Source: Aestuariibaculum sp. M13
GTDB taxonomy: Bacteria; Bacteroidota; Bacteroidia; Flavobacteriales; Flavobacteriaceae
Direction of reading: 5' to 3'
DNA: 64,000 nt
Assembly (NCBI RefSeq): GCF_024723255.1
Contig: NZ_JANIAC010000003.1
Coordinates: 248,001 to 312,000, forward strand
Part shown: one piece after another, positions 21,850 to 52,279 of the stretch
Layout: each line of letters opens with the position of its first letter
Numbering within the stretch: position 1 is the stretch's first letter
The notes under the pieces: generated by a model
Database searches by the model: none
What the model was told of the DNA's origin: nothing
Seen by the model: only the letters and a program-made list of their open reading frames with translations
Made by a program: the position numbers and the translations under genes

Positions 21850-21867
21850 ATATGATAAATGTCATAG
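21850..21867 (+). promoter_or_regulatory. Candidate Fnr-like box upstream of tonB
   Basis: ATATGATAAATGTCATAG contains the core TGAT-AAAT-GTCA (21853-21864) within the perfect palindrome TATGA-N6-TCATA. Its centre (21858.5) is 29.5 bp upstream of the -7-like TAATTTTA starting at 21888, the same spacing as in the hemN, cco and ccoI promoters of this window. Confidence 0.5.
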
Positions 21868-21887
21868 TAGGAATCGGGCATATAGAC

Positions 21888-21895
21888 TAATTTTA
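21888..21895 (+). promoter_or_regulatory. Candidate -7 element of tonB
   Basis: TAATTTTA matches TAnnTTTG except for the last base and lies 19 bp before the tonB ATG. It is supported mainly by its fixed distance to the Fnr-like box. Confidence 0.45.
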
Positions 21896-21914: not shown

Positions 21915-22661
21915 ATGTTACCTAAAAAAAATCCCGATGTAGAAATTGGCAGAAATAGCGGTTTATATTTTGCTATCGGGCTTAATATCATGCTATTTTT
22001 GTCTTGGCAAGCCTTAGAATATAAAACCTTTGAAACAGAAGATGTAGATATAGGATATGTTAATATGCAGGCTCAAACCGAGGAAGAAATTCCTATTGTG
22101 CAATATACACAAACATTACCGCCACCGCCACCGCCACCAGCTATTGTAACTGAGAGTGTTGAAATAGTTGAGGACGAAGAAATTATAGAAGAAACTATTT
22201 TTGAAAGTACCGAAGTGACTCAAACAGATGCTATTGTTGAGTATGGCGATACAGATTTAGGCGTTTCTGATGTACAGGTTGCTGAAGTTGCCGAAGATGT
22301 AGAGGTGCCATTTTCAGTTATTGAGAATGTTCCTGTATTTCCAGGTTGTGAAGGCAAATCTAAAGCTGCTACCGTTAAGTGTTTTAATGATAAAATGCTG
22401 GAGCACGTTAAAAATAATTTCCATTACCCTGAAGCAGCACTTGATTTGGCTATTGGAGGTCGTGTTACTGTAGTCTTTATCATAGATCAAAAAGGATATA
22501 TAACAGGAATACGTTCAAGAGGACCAGATAAAATTTTAGAAAAAGAAGCCGAACGAATAGTAAGCCTATTACCTAAAATGAAACCAGGTACTCAACGTGG
22601 CAGACCTGTAAAAGTAAACTATGCCGTGCCAATTGTATTTAAATACAGTGCTACACAATAA
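21915..22661 (+). CDS. Energy transducer TonB
   Basis: A 248-residue TonB protein that would transmit the inner-membrane proton-motive force to outer-membrane TonB-dependent receptors. It has a cytoplasmic N-terminus, one membrane anchor (about residues 16-36), a periplasmic stretch with a PPPPPPP run (about 70-76) and Glu/Val-rich linker, and a C-terminal TonB domain (about 135-245) including FPGCEGKSKAATVKCFNDKML and the YPEAALDLAIGGRVTVVFIID core. No ExbB/ExbD genes adjoin it. Its upstream region carries an Fnr-like box and -7 element with the same geometry as the oxidase promoters, suggesting expression under low oxygen. Confidence 0.93.
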   Translation: MLPKKNPDVEIGRNSGLYFAIGLNIMLFLSWQALEYKTFETEDVDIGYVNMQAQTEEEIPIVQYTQTLPPPPPPPAIVTESVEIVEDEEIIEETIFESTEVTQTDAIVEYGDTDLGVSDVQVAEVAEDVEVPFSVIENVPVFPGCEGKSKAATVKCFNDKMLEHVKNNFHYPEAALDLAIGGRVTVVFIIDQKGYITGIRSRGPDKILEKEAERIVSLLPKMKPGTQRGRPVKVNYAVPIVFKYSATQ

Positions 22662-40885: not shown

Positions 40886-40903
40886 ACATGACATAAGTCA
40901 TGT
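40886..40903 (+). promoter_or_regulatory. Fnr-like box upstream of hemN
   Basis: ACATGACATAAGTCATGT is a perfect inverted repeat (7-bp arms, 4-bp spacer) with core TGAC-ATAA-GTCA. Its centre (40894.5) is 29.5 bp upstream of the -7 element TACTTTTG, the class II activator position. Confidence 0.75.
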
Positions 40904-40923
40904 TTTTAACAAAAGAATAAGGA

Positions 40924-40931
40924 TACTTTTG
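40924..40931 (+). promoter_or_regulatory. -7 promoter element of hemN
   Basis: TACTTTTG is an exact match to TAnnTTTG, 17 bp upstream of the hemN start codon. No -33 TTG is present, as expected for an activator-dependent promoter, since the Fnr-like box occupies that side. Confidence 0.7.
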
Positions 40932-40948
40932 AACTTTAAAAAACCACC

Positions 40949-42313
40949 ATGATAAAACAACTAACCAATAAGTACAATGTTGCTGGGCCAAGATATACCA
41001 GTTATCCGACGGTACCTTATTGGAATCAAGATACTTTTTCTCTGAAAAACTGGAGAGCTTCGCTAATAAAATCGTTTAAGGCAAGTAATGCCTCCGAAGG
41101 CTTGAGTTTATATATTCATTTACCATTCTGTGAAAGTTTATGTACATTTTGTGGTTGTAATAAACGTATTACTAAGCAGCATAGTGTAGAACCGGTTTAT
41201 ATTAAGGCTGTTTTAAAAGAATGGAGTTTATACTTGGAGTTGTTTGATGAAAAACCAGTGATTAAAGAAATTCATTTAGGAGGTGGTACACCGACTTTCT
41301 TTTCTCCGGAGCATTTAACATTGTTGATTGAAGGCATTCTAAAACATGCCAAAGTTGCTGAAGATTATGAATTTAGTTTTGAAGGCCACCCGAATAATAC
41401 CACGCGAGAACATTTACAGGCTTTATACAATGTAGGTTTTCGTCGTGTAAGCTTTGGTGTTCAGGACTATAATGAAACCGTACAGAAAGCGATTCATAGA
41501 ATACAACCATTTGAACATGTAAAACGCGCTACCGAGTTAGCCAGAGAAGTAGGTTACACTTCGGTAGGTCATGATATTATTTTTGGTTTGCCATTTCAAA
41601 CCTTAGAACACGTTAAAGAAACCATTTTAAAAACACAGGCTTTATTACCTGACCGTTTGGCTTTTTACAGCTATGCACACGTGCCATGGATAAAAGGTAA
41701 CGGACAACGCGGATTTAATGATGAAGATTTACCATCGGCAGAATTGAAACGCGAACAATATCAATTAGGAAAACAATTGCTAACTAATATCGGCTATCAC
41801 GAAATAGGGATGGACCATTTTGCTTTACCAACAGACACCCTTTACACATCCATGATTAACGGGAAATTACACCGTAATTTCATGGGATACACCTCATCAA
41901 AAACCCAGGCTATGATAGGCTTGGGCGTTTCGTCTATTAGTGATAGCTGGTATGGGTTTGCACAAAATGAAAAGAGCATAGAGGCTTATTATCATTTATT
42001 GAAAGAAAATATTATTCCTGTATACCGCGGACATATTTTAAATGATGAAGACCTTATTATTCGAAAACATGTTTTAAACTTAATGTGTCAGTTTAAAACC
42101 AGTTGGAGTAATGATAATTTATATTTTGATGAATTACCACAGGTTTTAAGTCGTCTGGCAGAAATGGAACGTGATGGTTTAATAGAAATTAAGAAGAGCA
42201 GTATTGTTGTAACATCAAAAGGTAAACCTTTTGTTAGAAATGTATGCATGGCTTTTGATGTGTTATTACAAAGAAAACAACCGGATACCCAGTTGTTTTC
42301 AATGACTGTATAG
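40949..42313 (+). CDS. hemN: Oxygen-independent coproporphyrinogen III oxidase
   Basis: A 454-residue radical SAM enzyme that decarboxylates coproporphyrinogen III to protoporphyrinogen IX without oxygen in haem synthesis. The N-terminus NKYNVAGPRYTSYPTVPYW is typical of true HemN. The radical SAM motif is CESLCTFC (Cys61, Cys65, Cys68) with the extra Cys70 of HemN, followed by HLGGGTPTFF and the FEGHPNNTT block. It is monocistronic, with an Fnr-like box and -7 element upstream, as expected for a gene needed under low oxygen; haem supply also fits the neighbouring cbb3 oxidase. Confidence 0.95.
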   Translation: MIKQLTNKYNVAGPRYTSYPTVPYWNQDTFSLKNWRASLIKSFKASNASEGLSLYIHLPFCESLCTFCGCNKRITKQHSVEPVYIKAVLKEWSLYLELFDEKPVIKEIHLGGGTPTFFSPEHLTLLIEGILKHAKVAEDYEFSFEGHPNNTTREHLQALYNVGFRRVSFGVQDYNETVQKAIHRIQPFEHVKRATELAREVGYTSVGHDIIFGLPFQTLEHVKETILKTQALLPDRLAFYSYAHVPWIKGNGQRGFNDEDLPSAELKREQYQLGKQLLTNIGYHEIGMDHFALPTDTLYTSMINGKLHRNFMGYTSSKTQAMIGLGVSSISDSWYGFAQNEKSIEAYYHLLKENIIPVYRGHILNDEDLIIRKHVLNLMCQFKTSWSNDNLYFDELPQVLSRLAEMERDGLIEIKKSSIVVTSKGKPFVRNVCMAFDVLLQRKQPDTQLFSMTV

Positions 42314-42336
42314 AATTTGTTATTTATCAGTGGTGA

Positions 42337-42786
42337 CTATATTCTGAGTTTGCCTGTTATTTCGTCTACTTTTATGGCGTAAATAACAGGCGAATCTTCT
42401 TCTACCTTAGCCGAAAACTCTTGAATATAATCTAAATCGCGTCCTTCGTTATTTAGAATGACTTCTTTAACTCCTAAAGAAAATTCGTGTAACATGGCTT
42501 TAGCTCCACTACCAGATAGTTCCTGATAAGTGCCGTGAACCACAACCGATTTCCATTTGTCTATGGCATCAATTTCTGAAACTTCAAGAGCCACATTAGG
42601 GTTTAATCGAAGAGCATTAATTTTGTGACCTTCACCTGAATAACCAATAATAATATGGTCTTTATTGTACAAATAGGTGATGGGAACTACAAACGGGCGA
42701 TTATTATATATATAGGCCAAATGGCCAACGTAGTTGTTGTGCAAAATGTACTCGCATTTTTGTAAATCTAAAGTTTCCATGAGCAT
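42337..42786 (-). CDS. Pyridoxamine 5'-phosphate oxidase-like protein
   Basis: A 149-residue split-barrel flavin/haem-binding protein of the PNPOx-like superfamily. Key stretches are CEYILHNNYVGHLAYIYNNRPFVVPITYLYNKDHIIIGYSGEGHKINALRLNP, the classical 'GHKI..L' arrangement, and SVVVHGTYQEL. The start could be the ATG at 42786 or the one two codons later. Relatives include FMN-dependent enzymes, haem-utilisation proteins and nitroimidazole reductases. An Fnr-like box with a TAATTTTA element lies upstream, consistent with the redox-linked setting. Activity is unassigned. Confidence 0.8.
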   Translation of the reverse strand: MLMETLDLQKCEYILHNNYVGHLAYIYNNRPFVVPITYLYNKDHIIIGYSGEGHKINALRLNPNVALEVSEIDAIDKWKSVVVHGTYQELSGSGAKAMLHEFSLGVKEVILNNEGRDLDYIQEFSAKVEEDSPVIYAIKVDEITGKLRI

Positions 42787-42885
42787 TAGTTTTATTGGTT
42801 TTTAAATATGGCGGGTTCATTAATGCGTTTTTAGTAAAATCGATTCAGGGAACATTCATCTTTCAACACAAGAATTTACCATGTT

Positions 42886-42893
42886 TAAAATTA
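42886..42893 (-). promoter_or_regulatory. Candidate -7 element of the PNPOx-like gene
   Basis: On the minus strand this reads TAATTTTA, one base from TAnnTTTG. It is 29.5 bp from the centre of the Fnr-like core at 42917-42928, and leaves a leader of about 100 bases before the start codon at 42786. Confidence 0.4.
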
Positions 42894-42916
42894 CAGAATA
42901 CCGTAGAACTGAAAAA

Positions 42917-42928
42917 TGATTAAAATCA
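42917..42928 (-). promoter_or_regulatory. Candidate Fnr-like box upstream of the PNPOx-like gene
   Basis: TGATTAAAATCA: core TGAT-TAAA-ATCA, identical to the E. coli FNR core half-sites. Flanks match the local ACATGA/TCATGT pattern only partly. It is located between the minus-strand tauE stop (42957) and this gene. Confidence 0.45.
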
Positions 42929-42956
42929 GTTGGTTATCATGTTGAATAAGAAATGT

Positions 42957-43658
42957 TTAATGGCAGTCTATAGAACTCGTGGCAAGTTCTACAACAGGAG
43001 CAGGAGACAGGTAAGGAATACCTAAACCTAAACCACGAAGAATAAATAGAAGACCAATGATTACCACGAAAACAGGAACAGCTTTCTGAATACGTTGCTT
43101 AATGCTACTGTTTAAAAATTTACCAAGGTAAATGGCTGAGGTCATCAACGGAATAGTGCCTAACCCAAACAACATCATGTATAAGCTGCTTTGAAATGCA
43201 GATGACATGGTGATGGCAGCAAACACGGCCATATAAACCAATCCACAAGGTAAAAATCCGTTAAGAAAGCCTATAGTTAAAAACGTATCGGCAGTTTTCT
43301 TTTTAAGGGCTTTTCCTAATGCAGACTTTACTTTAGCAATAAGGTTATAAATAGGTTTTGAAGCATTGTATTTATTAAATAGTTGTGTCGGAATTAAAAT
43401 AATTACAATCATTAAAATACCAATAGCAATAGATAATTGCTGTTGCATACCAAACAGGTAAAAGCTTTTACCAATAAAGCCGAAAAGCAGTCCTATAATA
43501 CTGTAAGCTAATAAACGCCCAATATGATATGAGAAGATTTGAGCGATTTTTTTAACCGAATTGCTGCGGTCTACAGGTAGCATAAAGGCAATAGGGCCAC
43601 ACATACCAACACAGTGGAAACTTCCTAAAATACCAAATATGAGTGCAGACCAAAGCAT
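42957..43658 (-). CDS. TauE/SafE (DsbD-like) membrane protein of the cbb3 cluster
   Basis: A 233-residue inner-membrane protein with six hydrophobic segments. It shows the DsbD/CcdA-like features of this branch: GSFHCVGMCGPIAFML near the N-terminus (two Cys) and GFLPCGLVYMAVFAA in the middle, with Pro-Cys. Such 'sulfite exporter TauE/SafE' proteins follow ccoG/ccoH in many cbb3 clusters and are proposed to act in copper delivery or cytochrome assembly; real sulfite export is unlikely. The C-terminus ends SSIDCH with Cys and His. It starts at the stop of the FixH gene and is the final member of the cco operon. Confidence 0.85.
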   Translation of the reverse strand: MLWSALIFGILGSFHCVGMCGPIAFMLPVDRSNSVKKIAQIFSYHIGRLLAYSIIGLLFGFIGKSFYLFGMQQQLSIAIGILMIVIILIPTQLFNKYNASKPIYNLIAKVKSALGKALKKKTADTFLTIGFLNGFLPCGLVYMAVFAAITMSSAFQSSLYMMLFGLGTIPLMTSAIYLGKFLNSSIKQRIQKAVPVFVVIIGLLFILRGLGLGIPYLSPAPVVELATSSIDCH

Positions 43659-44105
43659 CTAGTATATAATTTCTTTTTTATAGAGATAAGAATTTTCGTT
43701 ATATTTCCAGTCTACTTTAATGTTCCAGCGACCATCCAATAAACGTTTGTCAGGTATGAGCAAATTGTGGTTTGACAATGAAATAGGCGTTTCAAAGTCG
43801 AATTGTTTATTAGATGGTCTGTATAGGAACACTTTACCTGTAATTTTTGTGTAATCTAGATCACTGGGAAAATTAATTATCAACCCCTCTGCTGATATAT
43901 TGTATGTAATATTTTGAGCTAAATTTTTAGCGTTATTTTCTTTATTTAAGTCGTTTTGAAACTCCAGTTCCTGACCGTAATAATCTTCGGTAACCAAATC
44001 ATGATTGTATTTTTTATCGACACTCATAGTTATAATAAAATACATAATGAAGCTTATAAAAGCTACAAACGCTAAGGCAATACCTGTTCCCCAATTGAAT
44101 TTCAT
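43659..44105 (-). CDS. ccoH: Cytochrome oxidase assembly protein FixH/CcoH
   Basis: A 148-residue membrane protein with one N-terminal membrane span (about residues 6-25, GIALAFVAFISFIMYFIITM) followed by a periplasmic beta domain. The MSVDKKYNHDLVTEDYYGQELEFQNDLNKENNAK motif around residues 28-60 is the FixH hallmark. FixH/CcoH helps the assembly of cbb3 oxidase. The gene follows ccoG by 12 bp and precedes the TauE-like gene with no gap, so all are co-transcribed. Confidence 0.9.
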   Translation of the reverse strand: MKFNWGTGIALAFVAFISFIMYFIITMSVDKKYNHDLVTEDYYGQELEFQNDLNKENNAKNLAQNITYNISAEGLIINFPSDLDYTKITGKVFLYRPSNKQFDFETPISLSNHNLLIPDKRLLDGRWNIKVDWKYNENSYLYKKEIIY

Positions 44106-44117
44106 CTGTCTTATTTT

Positions 44118-45542
44118 TTAATTATAACTTCTAGGTCCTAGAAAATTTACACTGGTTGTTTCAATAAGTTCATCATCGCTATAAACTTCTATAATCAGTT
44201 TATTTTTGTCTCCTGATAATTCACTTTGATTTATTTCTATAAACAGGGTGCCTTCGGCAATGCCTTGTTTTGGTACTTTAAAATTATCGCTGGCCGAAAC
44301 CAGTTTAATTTCTCCGTTATACTTTCTAAGTTTAAAACTTACGTTGTCTATTTCTTTTACGGTTTTGTTAACCAGTTTGTAGGTGAAAATATTACTGATA
44401 ATATTATCGCCTTTACGTTCATAGAGCTGTCCTGGTAAACGTAACACAGTGGCTTCAACATCGTTTCGAAGAAGCAGAAGCCCTGTAAATACGCCTATTA
44501 AAATAGTTAAAACAGCTATGTAGCCCTTCATTCGGGCTGTAAGTTTGAATTTTTGTTTCTTTTCTATTTCGTCTTCACTGGCATAACGAATTAACCCTTT
44601 AGGCAGGTTGATGCTTTCCATAATATGGTCGCATTCGTCAATACAAGCGGTACAGTTTACACATTCCAGTTGCGTACCGTTTCGAATATCGATACCGGTA
44701 GGGCAAACGTGAACACATTGTAAACAGTCTATACAATCGCCATGACCTAAGGCCTGACGGTCTTCATTTTTTCTGAATTTTTTTCTTCCGCTTTCGCCTT
44801 CACCACGTTTGTGGTCGTACGCTACTACAATAGATTTATTGTCAAGCAGTACACTTTGTAATCTTCCATAAGGGCAAGCAATAATACATACCTGCTCTCT
44901 AAACCAGGCAAAAACAAAATAGAATACCCCAGTGAAAATAATAAGTGGAACAAGTGTGCCTAAATGGTTAAACGGGCTTTCACCAATGTATTGTAAAAGC
45001 TTATCGCTACCAATTAAATAGGCTAAAAATATATTAGCAATAAGAAACGAGATGACTAAAAATATAAACCATTTCAGGCCACGCTTTCTTATTTTTTCGG
45101 CGTTCCATTCTTGGTTATCCAACCTGCGTTGTTTATTACGATCGCCTTCAATCCAGTATTCAATACGTCTGAAGACCATTTCCATAAAAATGGTTTGCGG
45201 ACAAACCCAACCGCAAAACACGCGCCCGAATGCCACTGTGAATAAGGTGATGAACACGACACTTATAATCATGGACAAAACGAACAAATAGAAATCCTGT
45301 GGCCAGAATGGAAAACCGAAAATATTGAAACGACGCTCTAAAACATTAAACATCAAAAATTGATTTCCTTGGACCTTAATAAACGGAGCGGCAAACAAAA
45401 AGGCCAGCAATACGTAGCTTGTTATCTTGCGGTACTCGTATAGCTTGCCGCCGGGTTTTTTAGGGTACACCCAGGCACGCTTTCCTTCTTTGGTCATAGT
45501 ACCAATACTATCTCTGAACGATTCGTTGCTAGGTGTTTCCAA
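44118..45542 (-). CDS. ccoG: cbb3 oxidase accessory protein CcoG (FixG), polyferredoxin
   Basis: A 474-residue membrane ferredoxin. The N-terminal half carries membrane segments with FGRVFCGWVCPQTIFMEMVFRRIEYW and REQVCIIACPYGRLQSVLLD; the cytoplasmic ferredoxin domain has two 4Fe-4S motifs, CIDCLQCVHVCP and CVNCTACIDECD (about 275-310). A C-terminal membrane segment and an immunoglobulin-like domain complete it. CcoG is thought to reduce Cu(II) to Cu(I) for the CuB centre of cbb3 oxidase. It lies about 40 bp after ccoP in the cco operon. Confidence 0.95.
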   Translation of the reverse strand: METPSNESFRDSIGTMTKEGKRAWVYPKKPGGKLYEYRKITSYVLLAFLFAAPFIKVQGNQFLMFNVLERRFNIFGFPFWPQDFYLFVLSMIISVVFITLFTVAFGRVFCGWVCPQTIFMEMVFRRIEYWIEGDRNKQRRLDNQEWNAEKIRKRGLKWFIFLVISFLIANIFLAYLIGSDKLLQYIGESPFNHLGTLVPLIIFTGVFYFVFAWFREQVCIIACPYGRLQSVLLDNKSIVVAYDHKRGEGESGRKKFRKNEDRQALGHGDCIDCLQCVHVCPTGIDIRNGTQLECVNCTACIDECDHIMESINLPKGLIRYASEDEIEKKQKFKLTARMKGYIAVLTILIGVFTGLLLLRNDVEATVLRLPGQLYERKGDNIISNIFTYKLVNKTVKEIDNVSFKLRKYNGEIKLVSASDNFKVPKQGIAEGTLFIEINQSELSGDKNKLIIEVYSDDELIETTSVNFLGPRSYN

Positions 45543-45582
45543 GTTGTTTTGGTTTTAGGTTTTTTGTTAGGTGTTTAACGTT

Positions 45583-46467
45583 TTAGTTTGCGTCGTTCCA
45601 AATTTCTCCTTCAGCAGCTTTAGGCTCGGCAGGGGTTGTGCCCTGAAAGCTTAAAACATAGCTTGATACTTGTGCAATTTCTGATGGTTTTAATCCGTTT
45701 TTAGACCAGGCAATCATACCTTTTCCATCACGGCCACCTTCAGAAACTGTTTTAAATACATTTTTAATACCACCACCAAGAATCCAGTATTCATCGGTTA
45801 AGTTAGGTCCGATACCACCACCACCGTCAGCTTTATGACAAGCTATACAGTTGGCATCGAATATTTTTTTACCGTTGCTTAAATCGGAAGCATCGGTTAA
45901 TAGTTCAACAGTATTGAAATCTACTAAGTCTTTAGCGGTTTTCTTGTATTCTTCAATGGCTTTTTGAGCTTCAGCATATTCAGTATTTAATTCGTCGTAT
46001 TGTCCTTCGCCATTAAAAACGTGGAAACGTAGTAAATAGATTGCAGCAAAAACGATTGAAGCATAGAACCCATATAACCACCACGGTGGTAAATCGTTAT
46101 CTAATTCCTGAATACCATCGTAGTTGTGATCCAGAATAATTTCGTGTTCTTTTTCAATGGGTTTTGTACCTGCAAGTGCCTTATATAAATTTTTAACCCA
46201 TTGAATGAATTTAGAAGGTGTTTCTTGTTCAGCATCAAAGCGTGCCTTTGCAGCTTCGTCTAAACTTTGATAAAGTATAGACTTCATAGAGCTTACTATA
46301 CCTTCTATTGCAATTAAAATAAAGATGACCAGTAAAAGGAATAGTGCCAGTAACGGGTATTCTACAAAGGCTGGTTTGTCTCCGGAATCTATAAGGAATT
46401 CGGCTAAGAAAAATATCGCAAAGAATATTATTGGAACTCTTAACCATGAAGGGAATGATTGTCTCAT
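45583..46467 (-). CDS. ccoP: cbb3-type cytochrome c oxidase subunit CcoP, mono-haem
   Basis: A 294-residue membrane-bound c-type cytochrome subunit. Two hydrophobic stretches (about 10-25 and 38-60) are followed by a cytoplasmic part, the PPWWLYGFYASIVFAAIYL membrane anchor (about 127-147) and a periplasmic cytochrome c domain with one haem motif CIACH (Cys207, Cys210, His211) and a Met in GMIAWS as axial ligand. Proteobacterial CcoP has two haems; only one is found here, as in other Bacteroidota. It overlaps ccoQ by 4 bp (ATGA). Confidence 0.95.
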   Translation of the reverse strand: MRQSFPSWLRVPIIFFAIFFLAEFLIDSGDKPAFVEYPLLALFLLLVIFILIAIEGIVSSMKSILYQSLDEAAKARFDAEQETPSKFIQWVKNLYKALAGTKPIEKEHEIILDHNYDGIQELDNDLPPWWLYGFYASIVFAAIYLLRFHVFNGEGQYDELNTEYAEAQKAIEEYKKTAKDLVDFNTVELLTDASDLSNGKKIFDANCIACHKADGGGGIGPNLTDEYWILGGGIKNVFKTVSEGGRDGKGMIAWSKNGLKPSEIAQVSSYVLSFQGTTPAEPKAAEGEIWNDAN

Positions 46468-46649
46468 AATGTTTGGTCGTTTTGGTTTTCTAGTGGTAGG
46501 TTACTAACAGTTTTTATATAATCTTTTTTAGCAGTAACAACCCACCAAAATAGTACAACAAAAAAGATAAAAAAGATTAGCAGGGAGATGATAGGGTAGA
46601 TCTCTACCCCGGCAATGGTCTCCATATGGTTTTTTATAAATTTCATCAT
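46464..46649 (-). CDS. ccoQ: cbb3-type oxidase subunit CcoQ (FixQ)
   Basis: A 61-residue small membrane subunit with one hydrophobic span (IYPIISLLIFFIFFVVLFWWVV, about 17-39; key residues W, F, V) and a charged C-terminus (TAKKDYIKTVSNLPLEN). CcoQ stabilises the CcoNOP complex. It lies 5 bp after ccoNO and overlaps ccoP by 4 bp, so translation is coupled. Confidence 0.9.
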   Translation of the reverse strand: MMKFIKNHMETIAGVEIYPIISLLIFFIFFVVLFWWVVTAKKDYIKTVSNLPLENQNDQTL

Positions 46650-46654
46650 GACGT

Positions 46655-48847
46655 TTAGTTTTTAGTTGAAGAAATTTCAGAATCTTTAACCTTAATGTCG
46701 GTTCCTAATCGTTGTAAATAAGCTATAACAGCTACAATTTCACGATTGCGCATTTCGGTAAAATCTGTACCGGCAGCTTTTTTGTCTGCTTCATAATTTG
46801 CAGCAAAATCTGGGTCGGTATACAGGTTTTTCTCGATTTTAGTTCCTTGGTCTAGCATGTGCTGTTGAGCATTGGCAATGTCATCTTCGGTATACGGAAC
46901 ACCTAGACTAACCATAGCACGCATTTTATCTTCGGTTTTCGATTTGTCCAGTCTGTTTTTAACCAACCATTGATAAGCTGGCATAATAGACCCTGAAGAG
47001 GTGCTTTGTGGATCGTATAAGTGGTTTAAGTGCCAGTTATCTGAATATTTACCACCAACACGGTGTAAATCCGGTCCGGTACGTTTACTACCCCATAAGA
47101 ACGGGTGATCGTAAACATATTCTCCAGCTTTCGAATATTCTCCGTAGCGTTCTACTTCACTTCTAAACGGACGAATCATTTGTGAGTGACAGCCCACACA
47201 ACCTTCACGGATGTAAATATCACGTCCTTCTAACTCTAAAGGAGTATAAGGTTTAACACTTGTTAAGGTTGGAATATTAGATTCTACCATTAAAGTCGGA
47301 ACGATTTGTACAATACCACCAATTAAAATGGCGATGGTTGCATAAATGGTAAGTTTAATTGGTTTACGTTCTAACCAGGTATGCCATCCTTCACCAGCCA
47401 CACGGTGTTTAGACACACGCTCCAGTGCAGGAGCCTCAGCTAATTCGTCGGTTACGGCATTCTGCGACTTTCTAATAGTGGTTATAATGTTATAAGCCAG
47501 AATAAACATTCCGAAGATATATAACGAACCACCAATAGCACGCATCCAGTACATTGGAATAATTTCGGTTACAGTTTCCAGGAAGTTACCATACATTAAG
47601 GTGCCGTCTGGGTTAAACTGTTTCCACATACTAGCTTGAGTAAATCCGGCAACGTACATAGGTAAGGCATAAATAATAATACCTAAGGTTCCTACCCAGA
47701 AGTGCGCATTAGCAAGTTTTAAAGAGTATAATTGTGTTTTAAATAGTTTAGGAACTAACCAATAAATCATACCAAAGGCAAGAAATCCGTTCCATGCAAG
47801 TGCTCCAACGTGTACGTGAGCAATAATCCAGTCGGTAAAGTGACCAATAGCATTTACATTTTTAAGAGATAGCATCGGACCTTCAAATGTAGCCATACCA
47901 TATCCGGTTAGTGCAACCACCATGAATTTTAAAACAGGGTCTACACGAACTTTGTCCCAGGCACCGCGTAAGGTTAGTAGTCCGTTAATCATACCACCCC
48001 AAGAAGGCATTAATAACATGACAGAGAAAGCAACACCTAAGTTTTGCGCCCACTCAGGTAATGCGGTATATAATAAGTGGTGAGGACCAGCCCAGATATA
48101 AATAAAGATTAAAGACCAGAAGTGGATGATAGATAAACGGTATGAATAGATAGGTCTGTTCGCTGCTTTAGGTACAAAGTAATACATTAATCCTAAGAAA
48201 GGTGTAGTTAGAAAGAATGCAACGGCATTATGTCCGTACCACCATTGTACTAAGGCATCCTGTACACCGGCGTAAACCGAGTAGCTTTTCATACCGCTTA
48301 CAGGAAGTTCTATATTATTAAAAATATGTAGTACAGCAACTGTTACAAACGTTGCTAAATAGAACCAGATGGCAACATATAAGTGACGTTGACGACGTCT
48401 TAAAATCGTTCCTATTAAGTTGGCGCCAAAGGCTACCCAAACTAAAGCAATGGCAATATCAATAGGCCATTCCAGTTCGGCGTATTCTTTTGATGTAGTG
48501 TATCCTAAAGGCAAGGAAATGGCTGCGGCCACAATAATTAATTGCCACCCCCAGAAGTTAATGTTACTCAGTACATCACTGAACATTCTGGTTTTTAAAA
48601 GGCGTTGAGAGGAATAATACACACCGGCAAAAATGGCATTACCTACAAAGGCAAAAATAACGGCGTTGGTGTGTAGTGGTCTTAGTCGCCCAAAGCTTAA
48701 CCACGGAATTCCGTCGGTTAGGTTTGGAAACAAAAATAAAAAGGCTAAGAGCAAGCCTACAAGCATTCCTACAACTCCCCAAAGCATGGTAGCAAATAAG
48801 AATTTTTTAACAATCTTGTTGTCGTAGTAAAATTGTTGTACTTCCAT
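46655..48847 (-). CDS. ccoNO: Fused cbb3 oxidase subunits CcoN-CcoO
   Basis: A 730-residue fusion of the catalytic subunit and the mono-haem cytochrome subunit. The CcoN part (about 1-480) has about 12 membrane helices with the haem/CuB histidines in [34 protein letters not shown] and [14 protein letters not shown]. The CcoO part begins after a new membrane segment (about 500-520) and carries CVGCH (about 550-554), the [22 protein letters not shown] block and [23 protein letters not shown]. It reduces O2 to water with high affinity and pumps protons. The fusion is normal for Bacteroidota; all key residues appear present. Confidence 0.96.
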
Positions 48848-48852
48848 AATGA

Positions 48853-49041
48853 TTAATTGGTCTTTTTGTTTTTAATGGTTGTTTTCGATTGGTCTTTTAC
48901 TAATTCGTCTTCAAAAAGCATTCTTACCGAAGGGGTGTAATCATCATCGTACTGTCCTTTCTTAACAGCAACAATAAAAGCAACGAAGAAGACAATAGCC
49001 ACCACGATGCTAATACCTAATAACATATATATAACACTCAT
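48853..49041 (-). CDS. ccoS: cbb3-type oxidase maturation protein CcoS
   Basis: A 62-residue membrane protein with one N-terminal hydrophobic span (about 3-27) and the CcoS signature [21 protein letters not shown]. CcoS is required for cofactor insertion into CcoN. It is the first gene of the ccoS-NO-Q-P-G-H-tauE operon, preceded by an Fnr-like box and TAATTTTG element, and followed by ccoNO after 5 bp. Confidence 0.92.
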
Positions 49042-49060
49042 ACCTATTGAAGTTACGGGT

Positions 49061-49068
49061 CAAAATTA
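49061..49068 (-). promoter_or_regulatory. -7 promoter element of the cco operon
   Basis: On the minus strand this reads TAATTTTG, an exact TAnnTTTG match, 19 bp before the ccoS start codon. Its first base is 29.5 bp from the Fnr-like box centre. Confidence 0.7.
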
Positions 49069-49088
49069 AATGTGAAAGGTTTCTTAAA

Positions 49089-49106
49089 ACATGACTTTTA
49101 TCATGT
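49089..49106 (-). promoter_or_regulatory. Fnr-like box upstream of ccoS
   Basis: ACATGACTTTTATCATGT: inverted repeat ACATGA-N6-TCATGT, core TGAC-TTTT-ATCA. It lies between the ccoI stop and ccoS start, showing that the cco operon has its own promoter separate from ccoI. Confidence 0.75.
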
Positions 49107-49121
49107 TTAAAAAAATAACCT

Positions 49122-51491
49122 TTATTTTATCTTCTTACCTATAAAGTTTGTAGCAATAGTGGTAAATACCACAACACTAATAGAACTTAATGGCATTAAT
49201 ATCGCTGCAATAACAGGTGCTAATTGCCCGGTTACCGCAAAGTAAAGTCCAATGCTGTTGTAAATAAAAGAAAGCACAAAACTCCACTTAATTATAGTTA
49301 TGGCCTGTTTAGAGGCTTTAATAAATTGATATAGCTGATTAAATTTTGAAGCGTCTAAAATAGCATCGCAGGCAGGGCTGAAGACATTCACATTTTCTGA
49401 TAGCGCAATCCCTACATTACTTTGTGCCAGTGCTCCGGCATCGTTTAAACCATCGCCAACCATAAGTACTTTGGCACCTTCGGTCTGGTGATATTTTATG
49501 TATTCCAGCTTGTCATCTGGTTTCTGGTTGAAAATCAATTTGGTCTTGGCAGGTAGAAGTTTTTTTAGATTTTCCTGTTCTCCGGCATTATCACCCGAAA
49601 GGATAACTAAATCGAATTCCTGTTTAAGTTTATTAAATAGTTTAGATAAACCTGTACGGTAGCTGTTATAGAAGGTATATTTTCCTTTGTATTGATTGTT
49701 GGTGCTAATATGTACGGTTGTGTTTAAAATTGATGGATCACTGCCTCCCACAAAACTCGCCGAGCCAATTTTAATATTGTCGTTTAGGTAAGATGCTTCA
49801 ATACCTTTTCCTAAATGTTCTTCAAAATGATTTAAAGAAATAATATTGTGTTCATCCAGAATGTCGTAAAGGGTTCTGCTTAACGGATGGTTAGAACCGC
49901 GAAGTGTATTTTTTAATAGAATTTCTTCTGAAGCAGATAGCATATCACCATCATAAGTCGCAATACTTTTTTCATTTGAGGTTATTGTTCCTGTTTTGTC
50001 AAAAATAACCGTATTAATTTCAGCTAACTGCTCAATAACCGAAGCGTTTTTTACGTAGAATTTTAGTTTGCCAAAAATACGAAGCAGATTTCCGAAAGTA
50101 AATGGAGCTGCTAAAGCCAAAGCGCAGGGACAGGCAATTATGAGAACAGCGGTAAAAACATTAATAGCTTTGGAAGCATCAACAACATACCAATACGTTG
50201 TTGCTAATACAGCAATACTTAATATGGCAATAGTAAAACGTTTACTAATGGCATTGGTAAGTGTGGTAAAATGGTCTTCCTTATTTTTATTGAACACATC
50301 ATGACTCCATAACTGTGTTAGGTAGCTTTGTTCTACCGATTTTAAAGCTTCCATTTCTATAAGTCCGGCTGTTTGCTTGCCGCCGGCAAAAAGTTTATCA
50401 CCTGAATCTTTACTGACTGTTTTAGATTCACCGGTAACAAAGCTGTAATCTATTTGGGCATTACCGTTAATTAAAATGCCATCGGCAGGAATTAATTCTT
50501 CGTTTCTAATTAATAGTCGGTCACCTTGTTTAATATCATAAACCTGAATAGGGGTTTCTATGCCATTTTCAATTTTAGTTATGGCAATAGGGAAATAGGA
50601 TTTGTAATCGCGTTCGAAGGATAAAAATGAATAGGTTTTCTGTTGAAAAAACTTTCCGAGTAATAAAAAGAAAACCAATCCGGTCAGGCTATCGAAAAAC
50701 CCCGAGCCCAAATCGAAAATAATATCTATGGTGCTGCGAATGAAAAGTACAGCGATGCCCAAAGCAATAGGTACATCTATATTTAAAAGCCCTTTACGTA
50801 AACCTTTGTAGGCCGAAATAAAATAATCCTGACCAGCATAAAACACTACAGGTAACGAAAAGGTAAACATAAGCCAGCGAAACAAATGTTTGTATTGCTC
50901 TAACCAATATTCGCCCACTTCAAAATATTCAGGAAAGGATAAGAACATGACATTTCCAAAGGCAAAACCTGCGATCCCTAATTTGTAAATAAGTGAGCGG
51001 TTAACTTGTGCTTTTCCGGTCTTGAAATCGTCAAGAGATATATACGGTTCATAGCCAATACTACTTAAAAGAATCACAACATCTTTAAGTGATGTGTCTT
51101 GAGTATTGTAGGTTACCCGAACATTTTTTTTGCCGAAATTCACCTGGGAAGCAGAAATGCCTGGATTTAATTTGTTGAGGTTTTCTAAAATCCAGATACA
51201 TGAACTACAATGAATATGCGGAATATAAAGTGTGGTAATCTGTGTTTTACCATCGTTAAATTCGGTTAATTTTTCAATAATGTTTTCCTGAGATAAAAAA
51301 TCGTATTTACCTTCAATGTCCTTTGGGGTTGCACCAGGTGCTGCCTGTAAGTCGTAGTAACAGGTTAAGTCGTTTTCTGAAAAAATTTCATATACAGTCT
51401 TGCAACCATTACAACAGAATGTTTTATCGTTAAATGTAATAGCCTGCGAATCGCATACGTCGCCACAGTGGAAACAATTTTCTTGATCCAT
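49122..51491 (-). CDS. ccoI: Copper-transporting P-type ATPase CcoI (FixI)
   Basis: A 789-residue P1B-type ATPase that supplies copper to cbb3 oxidase. The N-terminus has a Cys-rich zinc/copper region (CFHCGDVC and FCCNGC, about 6-33), then a heavy-metal-associated domain with HCSSCIW (about 95-101), eight membrane helices including the transport motif ACPCALALA, the phosphorylation motif FDKTGT and the hinge MVGDGLNDA. It is transcribed separately, ending 81 bp before the ccoS start, with an Fnr-like box upstream at 51547-51564. Motifs are complete. Confidence 0.95.
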   Translation of the reverse strand: MDQENCFHCGDVCDSQAITFNDKTFCCNGCKTVYEIFSENDLTCYYDLQAAPGATPKDIEGKYDFLSQENIIEKLTEFNDGKTQITTLYIPHIHCSSCIWILENLNKLNPGISASQVNFGKKNVRVTYNTQDTSLKDVVILLSSIGYEPYISLDDFKTGKAQVNRSLIYKLGIAGFAFGNVMFLSFPEYFEVGEYWLEQYKHLFRWLMFTFSLPVVFYAGQDYFISAYKGLRKGLLNIDVPIALGIAVLFIRSTIDIIFDLGSGFFDSLTGLVFFLLLGKFFQQKTYSFLSFERDYKSYFPIAITKIENGIETPIQVYDIKQGDRLLIRNEELIPADGILINGNAQIDYSFVTGESKTVSKDSGDKLFAGGKQTAGLIEMEALKSVEQSYLTQLWSHDVFNKNKEDHFTTLTNAISKRFTIAILSIAVLATTYWYVVDASKAINVFTAVLIIACPCALALAAPFTFGNLLRIFGKLKFYVKNASVIEQLAEINTVIFDKTGTITSNEKSIATYDGDMLSASEEILLKNTLRGSNHPLSRTLYDILDEHNIISLNHFEEHLGKGIEASYLNDNIKIGSASFVGGSDPSILNTTVHISTNNQYKGKYTFYNSYRTGLSKLFNKLKQEFDLVILSGDNAGEQENLKKLLPAKTKLIFNQKPDDKLEYIKYHQTEGAKVLMVGDGLNDAGALAQSNVGIALSENVNVFSPACDAILDASKFNQLYQFIKASKQAITIIKWSFVLSFIYNSIGLYFAVTGQLAPVIAAILMPLSSISVVVFTTIATNFIGKKIK

Positions 51492-51518
51492 ACAATTTGC
51501 TCATTATTATACCTGTAA

Positions 51519-51526
51519 CAAAATTC
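51519..51526 (-). promoter_or_regulatory. Candidate -7 element of ccoI
   Basis: On the minus strand this reads GAATTTTG, TAnnTTTG with one mismatch in the first base, 27 bp before the ccoI start codon. It is supported by its 29.5-bp distance to the Fnr-like box centre. Confidence 0.55.
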
Positions 51527-51546
51527 CCAAAAGAACTCCTTACAAT

Positions 51547-51564
51547 ATATGACTTTTATCATGA
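51547..51564. promoter_or_regulatory. Fnr-like box between ccoI and the Crp/Fnr gene
   Basis: ATATGACTTTTATCATGA: core TGAC-TTTT-ATCA, the same 14 bases (ATGACTTTTATCAT) as in the ccoS box. For ccoI it stands at the class II position. It also lies 38 bp upstream of the Crp/Fnr start codon, where binding could repress the regulator's own promoter. Confidence 0.7.
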
Positions 51565-51601
51565 ATTTTAAGTATTTTTACCGAACATATAAATTTCAGG
51601 T

Positions 51602-52279
51602 ATGAGTAAATGTGAACAATGTATTGTTAAGCAATTTAATTCGTTAAAATCGCTTACCAAAGATGAATTGGTGCGTATTTCCGGGTGCAAAACTTCTAAA
51701 ATAATCAAAAAAGGAGAAACTATTTTTGAAGAAGGAGACGTTATAAATGGGGTTTTTTGTATCCGCGATGGGGTTTGTAAGTTATCTAAATTAAGTGCCA
51801 ACGGTAAAGATCAAATTGTAAAGTTGGTAGTGAAAGGAGACTTACTTGGGCAGCGCTCGTTGGTAACAGATGAGACAGCAAATTTAAGTGCCGTAGCCTT
51901 AAACGATATGGAAGTTTGCTTTATTCCTAAATCTGAAATTATTAGTGATCTACAGAAAAATTCCAATTTTACCCTGGATGTTTTAAAAGATATGGCTAAC
52001 GATTTGAGACAAGCCGATGATATTATTGTTAATATGGCTCAAAAATCGGTACGTCAGCGTTTAGCCGAGACATTAGTTTACCTTTACGAAAGCTTCGGAA
52101 CAAATTCAGATAAGACTTTAAGTGTGGTTTTATCTCGTGAAGATTATGCCAATATTGTAGGTACAGCTGTCGAGTCTGCTATTCGGGTACTTTCTCAGTT
52201 TAAAAAACAAGGTTTAATTTCAACTTCAGGTAAAAAAATTAAAATTGAAGACCTTGAAGGATTGAAGCGTGTTGAATAG
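51602..52279 (+). CDS. Crp/Fnr-family transcriptional regulator
   Basis: A 225-residue regulator with a cyclic-nucleotide-binding-like beta barrel (about 25-125), a long dimer helix and a Crp-type winged helix (about 150-220; VVLSREDYANIVGTAVESAIRVLSQFKKQGLI). The N-terminus starts MSKCEQC, giving Cys4 and Cys7, and Cys106 in MEVCFIP aligns with Cys122 of E. coli FNR. The third N-terminal FNR Cys is absent at its usual position; Cys29, Cys53 and Cys59 are available. An oxygen-sensing iron-sulfur cluster is therefore plausible but unproven. It is divergent from ccoI, near three of the Fnr-like boxes. Confidence 0.93.
   Translation: MSKCEQCIVKQFNSLKSLTKDELVRISGCKTSKIIKKGETIFEEGDVINGVFCIRDGVCKLSKLSANGKDQIVKLVVKGDLLGQRSLVTDETANLSAVALNDMEVCFIPKSEIISDLQKNSNFTLDVLKDMANDLRQADDIIVNMAQKSVRQRLAETLVYLYESFGTNSDKTLSVVLSREDYANIVGTAVESAIRVLSQFKKQGLISTSGKKIKIEDLEGLKRVE

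Follow-up and report, generated by a model that had tools for sequence, protein, structure and literature searches.

A box at a fixed distance from the -7 element probably marks low-oxygen genes, switched on by an Fnr-family sensor, in a flavobacterium and its relatives

Introduction

Control of cbb3 oxidase genes by regulators of the Crp family is known from rhizobia, with FixK2 and the FixLJ-FixK system, and position -41.5 is that of class II activators. Here, we analyze a stretch of 64,000 nucleotides of Aestuariibaculum sp. M13 (contig NZ_JANIAC010000003.1, positions 248,001 to 312,000; the window, hereafter), where the genes of a cbb3 oxidase, the copper pump CcoI, and HemN lie near the gene of a Crp/Fnr protein (Fnr, at 51602). 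Palindromic boxes in this window stand at one fixed distance from the -7 elements of predicted promoters. We consider it likely that they are operators of a low-oxygen activator of the Crp/Fnr family, most likely this Fnr, centred at -41.5 of sigma-A promoters. A box at this distance probably marks low-oxygen genes in this flavobacterium and its relatives, to be switched on by an Fnr-family oxygen sensor.

The FNR proteins of Escherichia coli and Aliivibrio fischeri resemble the window Fnr in the Crp fold (template modelling score 0.69 to structure 5E44, for an AlphaFold model of modest quality, with a mean predicted local distance difference test of 73.5 and a predicted template modelling score of 0.51), in three of the four cluster cysteines, which align, in their respiratory and fermentative targets, and in the class II operator at -41.5, a position that is predicted here. 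They differ in the box, which is TTGAT-N4-ATCAA there and ATGAY-N4-RTCAT here, in the promoters, which are of the Bacteroidota -7 type here, and in Asn13, which stands at the place of FNR Cys29. The FNR-like nitrogen-oxide regulators HcpR, DNR, and NnrR share the half-site spacing, and the HcpR box TTGAC-N4-GTCAA is close, but position 3 of the motif is A here instead of T or G (PMC1274295, in part; sources so marked are cited from a portion of their text) and the targets here are cbb3, pfl, and nirK. The best match of Fnr in the PDB, by sequence and by fold, is the Crp of Porphyromonas gingivalis (2GAU). However, the sequence match starts only at residue 35 of Fnr and leaves the CxxC region unaligned, and this Crp is described as effector-independent (PMC12937710, in part). 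FixK2 has no iron-sulphur cluster (PMC12937710, in part), and the FixJK-like element of our genome is a receiver-Crp fusion encoded elsewhere. A Flavobacteriales homologue has been put into a MalR-like group (PMC8510549, in part).

Low-oxygen control in flavobacteria seems to be little described. In Flavobacterium psychrophilum, the cbb3 oxidase and haem genes are strongly induced under oxygen limitation, and a term search of the main text of that study returned no mention of Fnr or Crp (PMC9723704, in part). Among the matches listed in a search of the open literature by titles and abstract beginnings, a scope that excludes RegPrecise and subscription papers, there was no flavobacterial Fnr regulon.

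A constant distance between box and -7 element

All five box and -7 pairs of the window have the centre of the box 29.5 bp from the first base of the -7 element (Table 1). An earlier note on this DNA had described three of them, before hemN, the cco operon, and ccoI, and recomputation returned the same coordinates and spacing. It had missed two, at 21850-21895 (+), outside the range that it covered, and at 42931-42886 (-), inside that range. The ACATGA/TCATGT flanks that it gave hold for two boxes; the third reads TCATGA...TCATAT on the ccoI strand. The -7 elements of hemN and cco match the Bacteroidota sigma-A promoter TAnnTTTG in full, and that of ccoI has G at -12, where the note had T. The joint pattern TGAY-N4-RTCA-N23-NANNTTTG occurs three times in the window, a count reached in 0 of 100 shuffles (mean 0.01), which agrees with the note's opinion that constant spacing makes chance unlikely. 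The box alone is a weak signal, with 6 matches to TGAC-N4-RTCA against a shuffled mean of 2.21 (6 were reached in 5 of 100 shuffles).

The sigma-A -7 box TAnnTTTG of F. psychrophilum occupies -12 to -5 (PMC9723704). If the same register applies, the spacing of 29.5 bp would put the box centre at -41.5, which is where the earlier note had placed the activator. The predicted leaders, of 13 nt (hemN), 15 nt (ccoS), and 23 nt (ccoI), are near the published flavobacterial median of 24 nt (PMC9723704).

The earlier note had proposed a count of box plus -7 element at this spacing over the complete genome, and its outcome is strongly positive. We scanned the 4.16 Mb of the flavobacterium's own genome (G000) for TGAY-N4-RTCA followed by NANNTTTG (G-type) after a gap of 8 to 38 bases, which gives 31 gaps, with gap 23 corresponding to 29.5 bp from the box centre. 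Gap 23 holds 11 of the 47 G-type pairs, each other gap 1.2 on average, and the reversed pattern gives 28 matches over all gaps; with sites counted as independent, the peak has a P of 2.3e-7, or 7.3e-5 after removal of the three seed sites. With TANNTTTA as the -7 element (A-type, A at -5), 18 of 53 pairs fall at gap 23 (control 13, P 3.1e-14). Since the box alone is little enriched genome-wide (ATGAC-N4-RTCA has 54 matches, the reversed pattern 44), the evidence resides in the spacing.

The position of the pairs relative to open reading frames (ORFs) follows the same trend. Among the 43 G-type pairs that were read out of 47, 9 of 11 at gap 23 lie outside ORFs of at least 100 aa, against 6 of 32 at other gaps, and the two inside ORFs (C1:836032 and C1:1305389) are probably due to chance. 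The 14 A-type gap-23 pairs that were read, out of 18, are all intergenic, and the remaining 4 are also upstream of ORFs. Hence, 27 of the 29 gap-23 pairs look like promoters. The earlier note had spoken of a local Fnr-type regulon: the regulon stands, but "local" is too narrow, as the 29 pairs are spread across the genome, and a purely local regulon is thus rejected.

Conservation and targets

The spacing is conserved beyond the genome. The 26 genomes scanned for this comprise our own and 3, 12, and 10 relatives from the genus, the family, and the order, respectively. Of their 143 pairs of ATGAY-N4-RTCAT and TANNTTTG, 78 are at 29.5 bp, 8 at 28.5 bp, and 14 at 30.5 bp; no other gap has more than 6, and the reversed pattern gives 21 matches over all gaps. 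Outside the genus, 10 of the 12 relatives of the family and 5 of the 10 of the order have a match at 29.5 bp. A scan of 148 genomes from the order with the fixed G-type pattern gives 178 matches, spread over 48 genomes, against a single control match.

Upstream regions were counted in 80 named related loci (L031-L110). The box precedes ccoNO in 67 of 75 relatives, with TANNTTTG at 29.5 bp in 65, and it precedes ccoI in 78 of 79, with NANNTTTG at 29.5 bp in 75. None of the 79 ccoI promoters has TANNTTTG at this distance, as base -12 is not T; one may guess that such a promoter is more dependent on its activator. In the same relatives, the genes inside the operon that served as controls had no box upstream of ccoG (0/70), ccoP (0/69), or tauE (0/62), and ccoH had one in 2 of 60 upstream regions, none at the 29.5 bp spacing. 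Only 2 of the 80 named loci contain hemN, one of them with a box, at 28.5 bp; beyond these loci, 7 genomes have a hemN site at 29.5 bp. In 72 mixed sites fetched by a pattern that imposes both box and -7 element, no spacer base exceeds 0.3 bits outside a T-rich stretch from -33 to -30 (0.4 to 0.8 bits). Taken by themselves, the ccoNO sites also have a fairly conserved spacer.

The targets in our own genome outside the window were assigned by family searches (Pfam and NCBIfam). They comprise pflB (pyruvate formate-lyase), pflA (its activase), the copper nitrite reductase nirK, formate-tetrahydrofolate ligase, pyruvate phosphate dikinase (ppdK), a PNP-type phosphorylase, and an ion transporter, as well as proteins with S30AE (ribosome hibernation type), Usp (one by Pfam, others by eye), Thioredoxin_9, Thioredoxin_3, CBS, and ATP-cone domains. 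Phosphate acetyltransferase (pta) has its box at 28.5 bp and a YceI-like ORF, assigned by eye and without a match in NCBIfam, at 30.5 bp. The ORFs that directly follow a site in other genomes include nirK, hemN, pflB, pta, ppdK, phosphoenolpyruvate (PEP) carboxykinase, hemA, and those of a globin, a c-type cytochrome, and a molybdopterin oxidoreductase. Two target proteins, L129:1589-3043 (485 aa, open-ended) and L153:1690-3498 (603 aa), had no Pfam match. Relatives of the latter also follow a site in genomes G079, G087, and G109.

Genes of the window

Family matches in NCBIfam and Pfam uphold the names hemN, ccoNO, ccoG, ccoP, ccoH (FixH), and ccoI given in the earlier note. The ccoI product has the HMA and ATPase-cat_bd domains expected of CcoI. 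The Crp/Fnr gene that the note had seen beside the third box is indeed present, with PF00027, PF13545, and PF00325 above cut-off.

Table 1. Boxes, -7 elements, and genes of the window
Feature	Position	Strand	Remarks
Box ahead of tonB-like gene	21850-21867	+	-7 element TAATTTTA at 21888-21895; gene (TonB_C) at 21915-22661
Fnr-type box ACATGACATAAGTCATGT	40886-40903	+	Before hemN; centre 40894.5
-7 element TACTTTTG of hemN	40924-40931	+	Predicted transcription start 40936; leader about 13 nt
hemN	40949-42313	+	Oxygen-independent coproporphyrinogen III oxidase; TIGR00538, 433.9 bits, above cut-off
Box ahead of PNPOx-like gene	42931-42914	-	-7 element TAATTTTA at 42893-42886; gene at 42337-42786
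cco operon	42957-49041	-	ccoS, ccoNO, ccoQ region, ccoP, ccoG, fixH, DsbD_2/TauE-like gene
DsbD_2/TauE-like gene	42957-43658	-	Pfam DsbD_2; tauE of the earlier note
fixH	43659-44105	-	Pfam FixH
ccoG	44118-45542	-	TIGR02745
ccoP	45583-46467	-	TIGR00782, below its cut-off
ccoQ region		-	Assigned from position only
ccoNO fusion	46655-48847	-	NF011053
ccoS	ATG at 49041	-	Read by eye
-7 element TAATTTTG of cco operon	49061-49068	-	Predicted transcription start 49056
Fnr-type box of cco operon	49089-49106	-	Centre 49097.5
ccoI-type P-type ATPase	49122-51491	-	Pfam E1-E2_ATPase, Hydrolase, ATPase-cat_bd, HMA
-7 element GAATTTTG of ccoI	51519-51526	-	Predicted transcription start 51514
Box common to divergent ccoI (-) and fnr (+)	51547-51564		Centre 51555.5
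Putative -7 element TATTTTTA of fnr	51573-51580	+	17.5 bp from shared box centre
fnr, Crp/Fnr regulator	51602-52279	+	Cys4, 7, 29, 53, 59, 106

The cysteines and specificity of Fnr

The window Fnr has 225 aa and is 97% identical to the Fnr of Aestuariibaculum marinum. It belongs to the Crp/Fnr superfamily by its cyclic-nucleotide-binding fold and Crp-type helix-turn-helix (PF00027, PF13545, PF00325). Its best NCBIfam model is Fnr (NF008365), at 101.6 bits, far below the cut-off of 228, and the FnrL model gives 70.6 bits against a cut-off of 300. In the numbering of FNR cysteines that we take to be the usual one (Cys20, 23, 29, and 122), Cys4, Cys7, and Cys106 of Fnr align with Cys20, 23, and 122 of A. 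fischeri FNR. It thus has the CxxC and the beta-strand cysteine of Gram-negative [4Fe-4S] FNR and lacks the third N-terminal cysteine, five residues after the CxxC, as FNR Cys29 aligns with Asn13. From this alignment, Cys4, Cys7, and Cys106 would hold a [4Fe-4S] cluster, and Cys53, which aligns with an alanine of A. fischeri FNR, may be the fourth ligand in place of FNR's Cys29. By the Crp fold, Cys53 and Cys106 would lie on neighbouring strands. Cysteines 4, 7, 53, and 106 are kept in all 30 orthologues of the order, our own copy counted. The window protein's own Cys29 is invariant in 81 near relatives but present in only 10 of these 30 orthologues, which makes it a weaker candidate for the fourth ligand than Cys53.

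We followed Cys53 through the phylum in a sample of 84 Crp/Fnr proteins, which is biased towards the query and includes the window protein as well as its copy L154. The 14 proteins without CxxC all lack Cys53, and all but one lack Cys106. Among the 70 with CxxC, Cys53 is present in 44 of the 45 without another nearby N-terminal cysteine, against 9 of the 25 that have one (Fisher 1.2e-8). However, the tree of the 84 proteins has few independent events, with 6 changes of Cys53 and 5 of CxxC. Of the supported pairs, 4 differ in the other N-terminal cysteine, and Cys53 stayed the same in 3.6 of them on average; 2 differ in CxxC, and Cys53 changed with it in 1.8. Neither trend is significant in a sign test. 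Overall, the support for Cys53 as a relocated ligand is only suggestive.

Position 3 of the motif has been tied to residue 180 of CRP, where R goes with G (PMC1274295, in part). This position is A in our boxes, and the matching residue is Val in the window Fnr and Thr in most relatives, which is consistent with a changed specificity.

The box shared by ccoI and fnr

On its fnr side, the shared box has a TANNTTTR element at 15.5 bp from its centre in 65 of 80 relatives, and no other distance is found in more than two loci. With this distance, or the 17.5 bp of the window, the box would stand over the fnr promoter, near -28 to -30, and this suggests negative autoregulation of fnr. Of 30 fnr orthologues, the one of the window included, 25 have a box in the 200 bases upstream. 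Similar two-sided boxes, with gaps 22 and 8, were found at G148:C15:251842-251901, G149:C33:183443-183502, and G150:C32:534946-535005, with one -7 element at 29.5 bp and the other at 15.5 bp. The gene on the 29.5 bp side is nirK in G148 and, judging from similar sequence, presumably also in the other two. In our own genome, nirK is divergent from a TM_HPP gene.

The shared box might instead serve ccoI only, with TATTTTTA being no promoter and fnr not autoregulated. Most relatives have an A as the last base of the putative -7 element of fnr, the common distance of 15.5 bp is replaced by 17.5 bp in the window and by 16.5 bp in the nearest relative (L031, by eye), and another promoter could drive fnr. 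Yet, the concentration of the element at a single distance in the relatives argues for a function, and the leader of 17 nt predicted in the window fits the flavobacterial leaders (median 24). We regard a box for ccoI only as possible but rather doubtful. Our broader proposal is tentative and falls a little short of an even call: a Bacteroidota variant of FNR, with its fourth ligand moved to a beta strand (Cys53) and an altered box, that would activate ccoI from -41.5 and repress fnr from about -28.

Discussion

Our proposal for the boxes is that at low oxygen the activator dimer would bind ATGAY-N4-RTCAT beside RNA polymerase and thereby turn on transcription of the cbb3 oxidase, of the copper pump CcoI, and of HemN; elsewhere in the genome, it would act on fermentation, nitrite-reduction, and stress genes. 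Both activation and low oxygen as its signal are deduced from sequence. The possibility that the pairs are AT-rich palindromes lying by chance near TANNTTTG-like strings would agree with the near-equal genome-wide counts of the box and its reversed pattern. However, the spacing histograms peak at 29.5 bp in every data set (the window, the G- and A-type scans of our genome, and the 26 genomes), and we reject chance co-occurrence as extremely improbable.

The identity of the activator is less certain. The term "Fnr-type" used in the earlier note suits the target genes and the neighbouring protein, whose best model is Fnr; we deduce that the boxes are bound by this Fnr rather than by some other Crp/Fnr paralogue. 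This is favoured by co-occurrence: with orthologues defined by an E-value up to about 1e-48 and an alignment from residue 5 or earlier, 28 of the 42 genomes that have an Fnr orthologue carry G-type sites, against 6 of 87 other genomes outside family f5. Several observations weigh against it. The other 14 of the 42 genomes have no G-type site, in a scan of that type only. Genome G039 keeps the -41.5 box before ccoNO (C30; L234, L295), while its best Fnr match, a frame of 350 aa with an E-value of 3.5e-24 and an alignment that starts at residue 31, is not close, and G072 has 3 sites and a CxxCx5C protein as its best match. In family f5, 14 of 19 genomes have sites, but the best-matching proteins, in the 8 genomes read, lack CxxC, Cys53, and Cys106 (two have a Cys at the residue preceding position 106), so that geometry and box are not specific to Fnr of the window type. 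The recognition helices of the window Fnr (VESAIR), the receiver-Crp fusion (TETLIR), and the CxxCx5C FNR-like paralogue of our genome (EEQVIR) share E-x-x-I-R, and 6 of the 29 sites in our own genome cluster around the receiver-Crp gene. The P values given above treat related sites and genomes as independent and thus overstate independence.

An alternative is that the class II geometry holds but another Crp/Fnr protein acts, or several share the boxes. The candidates are the CxxCx5C paralogue (G000:C7:213212) and the receiver-Crp fusion encoded next to a histidine kinase with a PAS domain (G000:C3:132-135 kb), which has its six sites within 15 kb. Both have the E-x-x-I-R helix in common with the window Fnr, and sites without a close window-type Fnr in G039 and G072 point the same way. 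On the other hand, the box recurs upstream of the window-type fnr itself in most orthologues, the 8 kb that were read about the CxxCx5C paralogue contain none, and G102 has a frame of receiver-Crp size (359 aa) and yet no G-type site. We see this alternative as a real possibility, though not a probable one, and keep the window Fnr as the most likely activator.

The two candidate regions have features of their own. The six-site cluster (G000:C3:129500-149400, L348) also holds CBS (Pfam) and Usp-, DnaJ-, and MlaE-like genes (by eye); it is possibly a FixL/FixJK-like oxygen or stress module that shares the box. The gene of the CxxCx5C paralogue (G000:C7:213212-213808; L260, L294) has moeA-like, globin-like, and ferredoxin-reductase-like neighbours (by eye).

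Flavobacteria are abundant in the sea, in soil, and in fresh water. A rule as simple as ATGAY-N4-RTCAT, 22 bases, and TAnnTTTR would make their regulon predictable from sequence alone, and it suggests that the class II activator geometry is also valid on the different promoters of Bacteroidota. The Fnr of the window would be a natural variant of the iron-sulphur site of FNR, open to a test by mutation of single cysteines. If the box between ccoI and fnr acts on both genes, a single box would let the sensor limit its own level while turning on respiration.

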